Below are positions 3,331-29,993 of a stretch of DNA of 34,077 bases, piece after piece. Both the position numbers and the translations under genes were made by a program. Source of the stretch: a virus. The stretch lies in IMG/VR virus record IMGVR_UViG_3300025073_000117, positions 1-34,077 of that record; one strand, given 5' to 3'. Position 1 is the first letter of the stretch. Each line of letters opens with the position of its first letter. The notes beneath the pieces were generated by a model, which made no database searches, had not been told where the DNA came from, and saw only the letters and a list, made by a program, of their open reading frames with translations.

Positions 3331-3837
3331 ATGACAACTAAAACTATTAGACTTGGAAATCCCGGCGGCCCCGAGGAGAATGTCAATATCGTTGACGGAT
3401 CCATAAGTACTGCCCTGGTTGCAACTCCCACGACTGACATCGGTGACGTAACTCTGCTGGCCGGAACCGCCCTCGTCGGTAAGGTTGGCATTGACCAAGC
3501 AACCGCCAATGCCAATGAGGTGGTGGTCAAGACCAATATCCACCCACCCGGGCTGTCAACTGTCGCGTGCGGTGAACTGCAAGGATCGGCCACTGCTCTA
3601 CAATTGCCGAACGTGGCTTGTAAATTCGTCCGCTTCCGTGCTGTTTTGAGCAATGCGGGAAATGTGTACGTAGGTGGTGCATCTGTCACTAAACCGGATG
3701 GCACGACTGACACAACCACCGGTCTGGAGCTCTCGGCTGGTGAGGATACTGGCTGGATACCTGCGTCGAATTTGTCAATTTTCTATCGCATTTGCGACAA
3801 TGCTGGAGACGATTTATGTTATCTCGCTATATCGTAA
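3331..3837 (+). CDS. Putative virion structural protein
   Basis: A 168-residue, low-charge, Gly/Thr/Val-rich protein with repeated short beta-type motifs (LLAGTALVGKVGID, NVYVGGASV), resembling small virion-associated beta proteins. Strong AAGGAG before ATG. Its last 24 bases overlap, tail to tail, the end of the antisense HNH gene, so its C-terminus may have been recoded when that element arrived. A precise role (fibre, decoration, head fibre) cannot be assigned. Confidence 0.5.
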   Translation: MTTKTIRLGNPGGPEENVNIVDGSISTALVATPTTDIGDVTLLAGTALVGKVGIDQATANANEVVVKTNIHPPGLSTVACGELQGSATALQLPNVACKFVRFRAVLSNAGNVYVGGASVTKPDGTTDTTTGLELSAGEDTGWIPASNLSIFYRICDNAGDDLCYLAIS

Positions 3838-4479
3838 TTTGCGATAAACCTGACCACATTTGCGCGAGCAGGTCATTTGGAGACTATGCGGAAAACGGTA
3901 AAACTCAATTCCGCAAATAGGACAATTCATATTCTGTCCAAGCTTTGTATAGATACGAGAACTGGAGTGATAAGAATGGTGTTCGCCGACTTTCATCAGT
4001 TGCAGATTCTCCAAACGATTATCATCTCGGATGCCATTGATATGATGAACAACTTCATCGGCAACGAGATAGCGCCCAAGATGTGTTTCCATAATGAGCG
4101 TATGTTTTGCAATGTATCCATGTTTAGTCGCTCTTGGATGGCCCTCTGGGGCAACAGAATAAATATAACCATGATTGTTCATTTCCCCTCGATAGCGGGA
4201 ATGATTCTTGCCTCTAGGCACGGTACTCAAAGAACTGCAACTTTTGGAACAATAATGCCCATAACCCCGTTCGGTATCAACCCTCTTTGCATAAAATGGC
4301 TTTCCGCATCTTTTACAATGGCGATTGGCGAGCTTCAGCCCATTTTTAGGATCATTTTTTTGGCACTCTCGCGAGCAATAAAGAACGCCTTTGGAGCGGA
4401 TAAGACGTTTTGGAGAAGCATAAAACTTTTCTCCACAGACCGGGCAAAACCGATTTTTGATAAGATTGACACTTGGCAT
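3814..4479 (-). CDS. HNH homing endonuclease with zinc fingers, antisense in late operon
   Basis: A 221-residue free-standing HNH endonuclease. Three zinc-finger-like units, CPVCGEKF with CSREC (12-39), CKRCGKPF with CSKSC (55-81) and CPICGIEF with CSRKC (186-208), flank an HNH core at ~140-162 (DEVVHHINGIRDDNRLENL). These enzymes cut DNA to spread their own gene. It is the only leftward gene in the 16-kb structural operon, is visibly more AT-rich than its neighbours, and has its own extended -10 promoter and a strong GGAGG site before ATG. Convergent overlap with the upstream structural gene (24 bp) supports a recent insertion. Confidence 0.85.
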   Translation of the reverse strand: MPSVNLIKNRFCPVCGEKFYASPKRLIRSKGVLYCSRECQKNDPKNGLKLANRHCKRCGKPFYAKRVDTERGYGHYCSKSCSSLSTVPRGKNHSRYRGEMNNHGYIYSVAPEGHPRATKHGYIAKHTLIMETHLGRYLVADEVVHHINGIRDDNRLENLQLMKVGEHHSYHSSSRIYTKLGQNMNCPICGIEFYRFPHSLQMTCSRKCGQVYRKLRYSEIT

Positions 4480-22106: not shown

Positions 22107-22586
22107 TCATTCACAGAAATTCAACTTGGCGAATTCGCCATGAAGTCGTTTTGCGGCATTATCGTAAGCGCGAGCCGCATCTTCACGAATTGAAAACGTG
22201 CCGAGGCAATAGTGTTTTTGATTAACCTTGATTTGTGCTTGCCAACCGCGCTTATTTTTGAATACACCTTTGAAGCCAGAAGTATTATCAGCTTGTTTTC
22301 CTCTATTCATCATATTTTGCGAATTTGTACAAACGCGCAGATTTTTTTCTTGATTGTCTAAGGTATCGTGATTTATATGGTCAGTAATCATTCCTCTCGG
22401 AGTTCCCGCAACGATGGCGTGCATCTTAATCTTTTTTTTCTTTCCAGATTCAGACGAACTCCGCATCGCAAAAAAAGACTTTGTGTGTGAATTCCATGCC
22501 GCAAACCACTTGTATTGATTTAACTCATCAAATCTCCAATCGTCTACAATGGCAACTTGTCCTTGCGTGAGTTTGATTTCTTTCAT
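22107..22586 (-). CDS. HNH homing endonuclease with AP2 domain
   Basis: 159 residues. Start MKEIKLTQGQVAIVDDWRF is the usual start of phage HNH-AP2 nucleases. HNH core at ~55-95 (MHAIV, ITDHINHDTLDNQEKNLR, NSQNMMN) and an AP2 DNA-binding domain at ~102-158 (SGFKGVFKNKRGWQAQIKV, GTFSIREDAARAYD). ATG 22586 has AGGAG 8 bases upstream; the longer in-frame start at 22709 would translate through a structured leader. It is a selfish endonuclease gene inserted between early genes, with its own promoter. A different family from the HNH gene at 3814. Confidence 0.9.
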   Translation of the reverse strand: MKEIKLTQGQVAIVDDWRFDELNQYKWFAAWNSHTKSFFAMRSSSESGKKKKIKMHAIVAGTPRGMITDHINHDTLDNQEKNLRVCTNSQNMMNRGKQADNTSGFKGVFKNKRGWQAQIKVNQKHYCLGTFSIREDAARAYDNAAKRLHGEFAKLNFCE

Positions 22587-22600
22587 CGCAGTTCTCCTAA

Positions 22601-22710
22601 ACAAATTCCCGCACCCAACCCGTGCTTGATGAGAGCAACCGACGCGAGTCGGGGGGTTAGATGCGGGGATTTGTAAAAGAAAATTCGCGTTCATGGTTGC
22701 TCTCATCAAG
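22601..22710 (-). promoter_or_regulatory. Structured 5' leader, copy 2 (interleaved stems)
   Basis: Two stems interleave: 22601-22620 pairs with 22655-22674 (17 of 20), and CTTGATGAGAGCAACC at 22625-22640 pairs perfectly with 22695-22710. A third hairpin CCGAC/GTCGG (22639-22652) sits inside. As minus-strand RNA the order is B, A, P3, B', A', then AGGAG and the HNH-AP2 start. The order allows a pseudoknot, with stem A' ending just before the ribosome site. The same layout occurs upstream of the methyltransferase gene. Confidence 0.6.
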
Positions 22711-22714
22711 TTTG

Positions 22715-22723
22715 ATTATATCA
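22715..22723 (-). promoter_or_regulatory. Extended -10 promoter of the HNH-AP2 gene
   Basis: TGATATAAT on the minus strand; predicted start about 22708, within 2 bases of the 5' edge of the structured leader. Confidence 0.6.
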
Positions 22724-28671: not shown

Positions 28672-29847
28672 CTAATCTTTCGACATGCACAGCACTACTT
28701 CGTAATCTATCCGGGGGCTGCCTTTGTTTTCAGCCAATCGGCGGAAGAAACTTTTACTTTCCCGGCGCTTTTCTTTGCCATCGAAGTCGTGTTCGGTGGA
28801 ATGTACCAGCATGGCATGATGTTCGTGGAGCGTGACGAATCCGGCCGCCTCGCACATCTGCCGCCACTGGTCGCAGAACGGGACAATCTGCTTGTTTTTG
28901 ACGAAGTCTTTACAAACCCAGACGGCATGACCGCCGGGAATAAGCACCTGGTACACCTGGTCAACGATGGTGCGGGCGGCGGTCCAGAAGTCGTCATCAT
29001 CTTCATTTGCCAGCTGCCCATCTGTTTTTCCGTAGGACGTATCGCGCTCTTTCGACCAGGATGGATAGGCTTGGTCACTTTTGCCCTTCACCTGCTTGAC
29101 GGTCAACTTTCCTTCTTCGGCATATTTACCAAGCATCTGCCAACCACCATCGGCACTCTGCCCCTTGAAGGGCGGGGAGGATATTGCGGCGTCGAAGCCG
29201 TTGGCTTTCATTGCGCCGAGTTGACCGGGGGTGGCGCCGTACTGGTCGCCATGTCCACAATGTTCTTGCCCGCTTTCCTGACCGATTCGGGCTTCGGAAT
29301 ACGGCGGACTGGATAGTGCGCCAGAAATACTGTAACCTTTTGCGATGGCTTCTCTCGCTGGCGTTCGTTTATGTCCCCCCGACTCGACCTTGTCCCAATC
29401 AATTCCGCTGCCGTGCTCGTTTTCCTTTATACAATCGGCGTAAGGTGGACTTGATACAACAATCCCCGCTTTGGTCAACACCTTCGCCAACTCCCGGCTA
29501 TCGCCATGCAGCAACGCTGCATCACCAGACCAATTCGGCATGGTGCGGAAACGGGAGTTCCACAAAGCGATATTGGCGTTTCCGAGATCCGCGAATTTTG
29601 CTTCAAGTTCTACGCCACGCCATTTCAGGCCGAGTCGCATCGCGTCCAACGCGCCCAGGGCGACTCCGCCGAAGGGATCAATTATTGTATCGCCAGGACT
29701 AGCCCACCCCTCCGCCCGCATGTGTTCGTAAATACGGCGGATGAGTTTTGATGAGAATTTCGCAGGGTGAGTAATTGCATCCGGGACAATCATTCCCTTC
29801 CATGCGGAAGGATAACAGCCAACCCACTCGTCAATGATGATTTTCAT
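28672..29847 (-). CDS. DNA methyltransferase
   Basis: 391 residues. SAM-binding motif DPFGG at 57-61, catalytic motif SPPY at 133-136, and two further SPP motifs at 180-183 (SPPY) and 224-227 (SPPF). The C-terminal half has VYQVLIPGGHAVWVCKDFV. The SPPY motif is typical of N4-cytosine (or N6-adenine) amino-methyltransferases. No paired endonuclease is visible, so it probably protects phage DNA from host restriction. GGAG lies 4 bases before ATG. It is preceded by a structured leader and its own promoter; it is divergent from the late operon. Confidence 0.85.
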   Translation of the reverse strand: MKIIIDEWVGCYPSAWKGMIVPDAITHPAKFSSKLIRRIYEHMRAEGWASPGDTIIDPFGGVALGALDAMRLGLKWRGVELEAKFADLGNANIALWNSRFRTMPNWSGDAALLHGDSRELAKVLTKAGIVVSSPPYADCIKENEHGSGIDWDKVESGGHKRTPAREAIAKGYSISGALSSPPYSEARIGQESGQEHCGHGDQYGATPGQLGAMKANGFDAAISSPPFKGQSADGGWQMLGKYAEEGKLTVKQVKGKSDQAYPSWSKERDTSYGKTDGQLANEDDDDFWTAARTIVDQVYQVLIPGGHAVWVCKDFVKNKQIVPFCDQWRQMCEAAGFVTLHEHHAMLVHSTEHDFDGKEKRRESKSFFRRLAENKGSPRIDYEVVLCMSKD

Positions 29848-29871
29848 AGTTCTCCAATGCGTCTACTTAAT

Positions 29872-29982
29872 ACAAATCTCCGCTATCCTGCATACGTTGA
29901 TGAGACGCACCGACAGAGCCGGAAGCAGAATAGCGGAGAGTTGTACTGGAAATAAAAAAGCCTGGCGTAATGCGTCTCATCA
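29872..29982 (-). promoter_or_regulatory. Structured 5' leader, copy 1 (interleaved stems)
   Basis: 29872-29890 pairs with 29926-29944 (17 of 19), and TGATGAGACGCA at 29898-29909 pairs perfectly with 29971-29982. A small CCG/CGG hairpin lies between. As minus RNA the order is B, A, P3, B', A', then GGAGAACT and the methyltransferase ATG. It shares the layout and the words TGATGAGA, ACAA-TC-CCGC and GGAGAACT with the leader of the HNH-AP2 gene. Confidence 0.6.
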
Positions 29983-29987
29983 CAGTA

Positions 29988-29993
29988 AGTATA
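29988..29993 (-). promoter_or_regulatory. -10 box of the methyltransferase promoter
   Basis: TATACT on the minus strand; predicted start near 29981, the first base of the structured leader. The -35 is not clear, suggesting an activator or a phage factor. Confidence 0.45.

Follow-up and report, generated by a model that had tools for sequence, protein, structure and literature searches.

Phage genomes are rich in free-standing HNH and TnpB genes; what is known of how their expression is controlled comes mainly from the T4 group. In T4, terminators and leader hairpins restrain the homing endonuclease genes (PMC2988022). Whether free-standing or intron-borne, these endonucleases (I-TevI, MobE, SegB, and a case with a hairpin before seg43(25)) have a structured leader or terminator just 5' of the gene that keeps expression low; either a simple hairpin hides the Shine–Dalgarno (SD) sequence or a terminator lies inside the gene (PMC2988022). 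The leaders described here occupy the same place; in contrast, they combine two interleaved helices (A and B) with a third helix (C) that appears to be exclusive with one of them, have a promoter of their own at stem B, and leave the SD mostly free. Attenuators such as the T-box, trp, riboswitch expression platforms, and pT181 offer a second comparison, with an early antiterminator set against a later, more stable terminator; in the present leaders, however, the 5' end of the RNA pairs with the loop of the terminator rather than with one of its arms, and there is neither an aptamer nor a countertranscript promoter. HEARO/IscB omega-RNAs likewise lie directly 5' of an HNH gene, but the leaders searched do not match HEARO in Rfam and the encoded proteins are HNH_3-AP2, other HNH, methyltransferases, and TnpB, not IscB.

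Two leaders in one viral genome

The window, by which we mean the whole stretch of DNA that was analyzed, is a 34-kb virus record from IMG/VR. It contains two such leaders on the minus strand, c1 (29982–29869) 5' of an N4/N6 methyltransferase gene and c2 (22710–22601) 5' of an HNH-AP2 gene (table 1). As the initial annotation had described, their layout is identical (-10 box, B, T-rich loop, A, small hairpin, B', A', GGAGAACT, and ATG), and in each the promoter places the predicted RNA start at stem B; GGAGAACT is found at these two sites only in the window. The within-genome covariation that it had claimed is borne out by ten pairs changed on both sides against one broken. These comprise three pairs in stem B (nine identical and none broken) and seven in stem A (seven identical and one broken).

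Two elements were correctly recognized but incompletely described. Stem A is longer than in that description, each arm measuring about 20 nt with only a few mismatches, and is followed by a U-rich tract, which is interrupted in c1 as well as in c2. The small hairpin is present, but in c2 it competes with the helix ACGCGA/TCGCGT, which was not in that description, because its 3' half contains C'. This helix is nested in B:B' and extends B, and in the predicted fold it is the counterpart of helix C in other leaders; for c1 the prediction gives no more than a short extension of B. Neither the likeness of stem A to an intrinsic terminator nor a third helix that would make the two folds exclusive figured in the first reading.

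Table 1. Elements of the two window leaders, the genes behind them, and helix C words of other leaders (c1 and c2 positions refer to the window)
Leader	Element	Position	Strand	Remark
c1	-10 box TATACT	29988..29993	-	promoter
c1	arm B	29971..29982	-	12/12 pairs
c1	arm A	29925..29947	-	
c1	small hairpin CCGGCTCTGTCGG	29910..29922	-	
c1	arm B'	29898..29909	-	
c1	arm A' with U-rich tract TTTGTATT	29869..29891	-	
c1	GGAGAACT	29848..29855	-	Shine–Dalgarno
c1	N4/N6 DNA methyltransferase gene	28672..29847	-	ATG at 29847; PF01555 E 2e-9
c2	-10 box TATAAT	22715..22720	-	extended -10, TGATATAAT; read from sequence
c2	arm B, CTTGATGAGAGCAACC	22695..22710	-	predicted RNA 5' end; 16/16 pairs with B'
c2	helix C 5' arm ACGCGA	22685..22690	-	pairs with TCGCGT (22647-22642) in predicted fold of RNA up to B'
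c2	arm A	22654..22674	-	5' arm of terminator-like hairpin
c2	small hairpin CCGACTCGCGTCGG	22639..22652	-	
c2	arm B'	22625..22640	-	within A:A' loop
c2	arm A', then U-rich tract TTTGTTTA	22601..22621	-	
c2	GGAGAACT	22590..22597	-	includes Shine–Dalgarno GGAGA
c2	HNH-AP2 (homing-type) endonuclease gene	22107..22586	-	ATG at 22586; PF13392 E 6e-8; AP2 E 8e-6, below its cut-off
L185	helix C TTCGCC/GGCGAG			
L223	helix C TTCGCCAA/TTGGCGAA			
L224	helix C TTTGCC/GGCAAA			
L215	helix C TGATCA/TGATCA			
L208	helix C TTCCAA/TTGGAA			
L226	helix C AGTCAG/CTGACT			
L219	helix C AGTTAGTA/TACTAACT			
L248	helix C TTTCAG/CTGAAA			
L228	helix C GGAGC/GCTCC			
L253, one copy	helix C TTTTTAGAC/GTCTAAAAA			
L253, other copy	helix C AAAGTGA/TCACTTT			
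L211	helix C TTTCCTAG/CTAGGAAA			by eye

Both leaders also have an ATG a few nucleotides from the predicted RNA start with one open frame (c1 29980–29870 and c2 22708–22586, minus strand). The c1 frame (MRRITPGFFISSTTLRYSASGSVGASHQ...) runs to a TAA and that of c2 (MRATMNANFLLQIPASNPPTRVGCSHQ...) continues in frame into the HNH gene, so each might encode a leaderless leader peptide; an ATG in this position is absent from the other members described below. A second endonuclease gene, HNH_3, lies at 3814–4479 (minus strand) inside the late region and on the opposite strand to it, and no interleaved leader was reported before it. At about 20868–20721 (minus strand), a promoter (TTGACA-17-TAAAAT) is followed by some 150 nt that close with a long, strong hairpin and its T-run (GGAGTTTTTTG), and the word CTGTGGCAGGT 5' of the hairpin pairs with the hairpin loop ACTTGCCACGG. 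This unit is likely a free-standing small RNA; it has no Rfam match, and a similar unit is present at position 9382 of L211.

Related leaders in other phages and the genes behind them

Using a descriptor of two interleaved helices, we scanned both DNA strands of phage relatives collected by a terminase search and of other fetched loci (3.57 Mb of phage DNA), the strand being picked by promoter and SD. Further copies, which the initial annotation had proposed to look for in relatives, do exist, and 20 were curated, giving with c1 and c2 a set of 22 leaders. The first scan yielded L185, L223, L224, L222, L211, L215, L058, L208, L226, L219, L228, L123, L141, and L024, and a second set of 80 HNH loci contributed L253 (two copies), L248, L249, L322, and L271. 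Their stem sequences are mostly unrelated to each other, and our own comparison found no conserved unpaired core among the 22; only the layout, the -10 box, the U-tract, and the SD are common to them.

With the descriptor, 72 sites in the 3.57 Mb reached a score of at least 40. A -10 box before B together with an SD and ORF after A' was found at 19 of the 72, three of which (L192, L167, and L129) appear on inspection to be false, and both features lie on the opposite strand at none of the 19. These three and L145, which by eye are repeats or terminators, were left out of the count. In Markov-shuffled sequence, interleaved helices with an SD and start codon at a score of 44 or above never occurred, compared with 20 in the real sequence; likewise, a score of at least 38 with SD, helix C, and -10 box was reached 11 times in the first 2.5 Mb and never after shuffling. 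At L212 11–160, a 52-aa ORF at the end of a contig is preceded by helices interleaved in the same way and a strong terminator (GACGGGTATTTTTTT); this site, too, was left out of the count.

The claim that related RNA leaders stand before unrelated genes holds in the window and extends to the other phages. By Pfam, the cargo is an HNH endonuclease in c2, L208, L226, L219, L228, L123, one L253 copy (L253a), L249, L322, L271, and L058, and L024 precedes an HNH-AP2 relative according to a tblastn match. Methyltransferases follow c1, L215 (MT-A70), and L248 (N6_N4), and a TnpB (OrfB_IS605) follows L253b. The remaining genes are those of L185 and L223 (phrog_4652), L222, L211, L141 (DnaD-like), and L224, whose product has an HNH-like C-terminus by eye and no Pfam match. 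As HNH loci served in part for sampling leaders, the 11 leaders of the terminase-only sample (c1, c2, L185, L222, L211, L215, L226, L219, L228, L123, and L141) are the ones to consider for cargo preference: five have HNH and two have methyltransferase cargo; for comparison, HNH genes make up about 0.5% of the background by a crude estimate that is probably too low.

The leader is nevertheless sporadic. The initial annotation had asked whether other phages with either gene lack the interleaved pairing and whether its pairs covary, and the outcome is divided: the leader is absent from most relatives of either gene (most of the 80 HNH-AP2 loci related to the c2 cargo and the methyltransferase relative L004 are without it), but where the pairing is present it covaries. 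L185 and L223, whose proteins are 85% identical, differ by nine pairs changed on both sides and two broken; L187, a third relative, has no leader, and a word search for more leaders of the L185 type returned only the two already known. A blastn search of the c1 and c2 leaders against cultured phages gave no significant match, and Rfam had no match for these two or for the leaders of eight further loci searched. Exact words TGATGAGA...TCTCATCA...GGAGA in viral contigs were mostly coding coincidences, except for an identical c1 copy.

L248 (4193–6780) and L249 (7127–8030) have near-identical leader parts before different genes, a methyltransferase and an HNH gene, respectively. Identity is 93% in the promoter, 85% in the loop, 84% in A, and 89% in A', whereas for B, as for B', it is no more than 42%; nonetheless, B pairs with its own partner at 19/19 and 17/18 positions in L248 and L249. 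The two arms look as if they had been replaced in concert, as if B were swapped. L248 has in addition an HNH gene of whose leader just A' and the SD are left, joined to the end of another, truncated reading frame. The earlier suggestion of a mobile RNA thus survives in part: the leader accompanies mobile or selfish cargo (HNH, TnpB, and methyltransferases), and in L248/L249 different genes stand behind a nearly unchanged promoter, loop, and A stem.

L006 (2895–2997) and L186 (6225–6325) have kissing-hairpin leaders, in which the loops of a 5' hairpin and of a hairpin before the SD are complementary to each other; the words are GGGAAG/CTTCCC before the closest HNH-AP2 relative, and the other pair is TGGTGG/CCACCA.

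Alternative folds and competing explanations

The 22 leaders contain 648 Watson–Crick pairs, 44 G-T and 3 A-C mismatches in the sense orientation (asymmetry p 1e-10, to which picking arm ends with G-U allowed may add a small bias), and this excess of G-T argues that the sense RNA is what pairs. The -10 box ends 2–8 nt before B in 20 of the 22 (TAAAAT being taken for L222), so that the RNA should begin at B or close to it. The mean U-tract score (nT) is 3.41 after A' compared with 1.56 after B' (Wilcoxon p 1e-6). Examples are GCCGGGGGC TTTTTGT in L271, GGCGGC TTTTTGT in L248, and GGCGGGG TTTTGTTTT in L224; in L226, L123, and L215 the tract is weak and hardly present. Because the U-tract follows A:A', we read this helix as an intrinsic terminator, which stem A indeed looks like.

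Helix C, of 5–9 bp, was found in 11 leaders, with one word between B and A and its complement between B' and A' (table 1); it was not found in L222, L058, L271, and L024. C and C' adjoin A and A', and from this spacing C:C' should sterically exclude full A:A'. The RNA would therefore have two folds, B:B' plus C with A in its loop, or the A:A' terminator. In predicted folds of the RNA up to B', B:B' forms in 22/22 leaders with 73–100% of B paired, and in those of the full leader A:A' wins in 18/22. Many leaders keep the same spacing, with 11–15 nt from B to A, 11–14 nt from B' to A', and 0–2 nt from A to B'.

The reading that we favor, and hold to be probable, is that the leaders are cis-acting transcription attenuators in which an antiterminator (B:B' plus C) competes with an intrinsic terminator (A:A'). 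The RNA would start at stem B; once B' is transcribed, B:B' (10–22 nt per arm) would pair first and helix C would close beside it, keeping the 5' arm of A away from A' so that the polymerase continues into the SD and the gene. If B were not available in time, A:A' would form with its U-tract, leaving B' in the terminator loop, and the RNA would end after about 110–120 nt. The sequences support the order of elements, their pairing and covariation, the RNA strand, the U-tract, and the predicted folding order, and the exclusivity of C and A:A' follows from the spacing; we infer both termination in vivo and the role of B as the control point. On this view the leader is a control unit that can travel with free-standing genes of a selfish or DNA-modifying kind (HNH, methyltransferase, and TnpB), cargo whose expression needs to be low or timed. 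Recurring before unrelated selfish genes and keeping only its pairing pattern, it would represent a compact RNA switch with no obvious ligand and could supply orthogonal terminators for synthetic biology.

No sensor or trigger emerged from tests for antisense promoters, read-through hairpins, and trans partners. Antisense promoter scores, relevant to a pT181-type countertranscript, are 9.80 and not above the 10.29 of shuffled sequence. A read-through hairpin of the I-TevI type, with a complement of B upstream of the start, was detected at p < 0.05 in only 2 of 17 leaders and is not general. Words complementary to B in the same genomes number 8 compared with 2.7 expected, with no convincing partner among them; three of the eight are in L248, within a repetitive proline-coding stretch.

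The two interleaved helices, conserved by covariation in c1/c2 and L185/L223, could instead form a static H-type pseudoknot at the 5' end, with B and A both present, that shields the RNA from decay and tunes access to the SD with no switching. The loop spacing would fit two long coaxial helices, B is at the RNA start, and such a structure is conceivable where C is missing. We nevertheless consider it unlikely in view of helix C, which should be sterically incompatible with A:A' and recurs with different sequences, the U-tracts after A', and an SD mostly outside the structure. An HDV-like or hammerhead ribozyme, considered for its topology and the word TGATGAG, was rejected by inspection, as stem B is too long and there is no core.

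That a protein or small ligand chooses the fold, as in a phage regulon or a riboswitch, seems improbable. Riboswitch expression platforms typically have two exclusive folds, and both window leaders are alike, but with no conserved unpaired core in the 22 leaders neither a phage regulon with shared sequence nor a ligand aptamer is supported; the missing Rfam matches and the exchange of B/B' while the rest stays (L248/L249) point the same way.

A terminated leader might also capture B of new transcripts in trans and silence its own element. The terminator loop presents B', and the unrelated B/B' of the otherwise similar L248 and L249 would be expected if elements avoid cross-talk. We regard such self-sensing as very unlikely, since the genomes have no convincing second site complementary to B and no antisense promoter, and since cis pairing should outcompete trans pairing. 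Its extension to dosage control, in which the B' loop of the short terminated leader would catch B of the same element's new leaders and cause termination while B/B' diversify as orthogonal "addresses," is speculative and doubtful; such addresses would keep elements within one phage from silencing one another, much as incompatibility loops do in plasmid antisense RNAs.

Inverted repeats acting at the DNA level, as an insertion or recombination site of a mobile cassette, would suit the different cargo behind a near-same leader and the L248 HNH gene reduced to A' and SD, but this idea is largely refuted by the 44 to 3 ratio of G-T to A-C on the sense strand, the promoter and SD on the same strand at 19 sites and never the opposite, and the U-tract, and can hardly be correct.

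A related form in cultured phages

In Salmonella phage LPSTLL, an HNH gene is preceded by a leader of related type, in which B is GTGGAAC/GTTCCAC, C is GCAACAA/TTGTTGC, and A is AACGCCCTTGTCAG/CTGACAGGGGCGTT, followed by CCTTTTTGG. About 22 nt separate B from the -10 box, and a possible 5' hairpin (TGTCA/TGACA) would hold B in its loop; because of such differences, we treat this type as a variant outside the 22 counted. It matches about 95 cultured enterobacterial phage records, before an HNH gene that in the records fetched opposes the direction of its neighbors. Klebsiella phage SCNJ1-C shows, by eye, compensatory changes relative to LPSTLL in A and in the 5' hairpin. The other cultured HNH genes examined have no such leader, and the start codons of several lie beside or inside the gene before them. 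Since a related form occurs in phages of Salmonella, Escherichia, and Klebsiella that are in culture, the leader is accessible.

A candidate in phage IME207 (L346, 461–524) was excluded because it matches the int-alpA RNA (RF02996) in Rfam. Like the present leaders, int-alpA stands before an HNH gene in IME207, and its A' arm overlaps the SD; in contrast to them, it has a conserved core (GCTAG and CGAAAAGC), and c1 and c2 do not match RF02996. The IME207 copy lies directly 5' of the HNH gene, beside terminase, and in relatives the SD region, TGATGAG, has its complement in the loop word CTCATCA.
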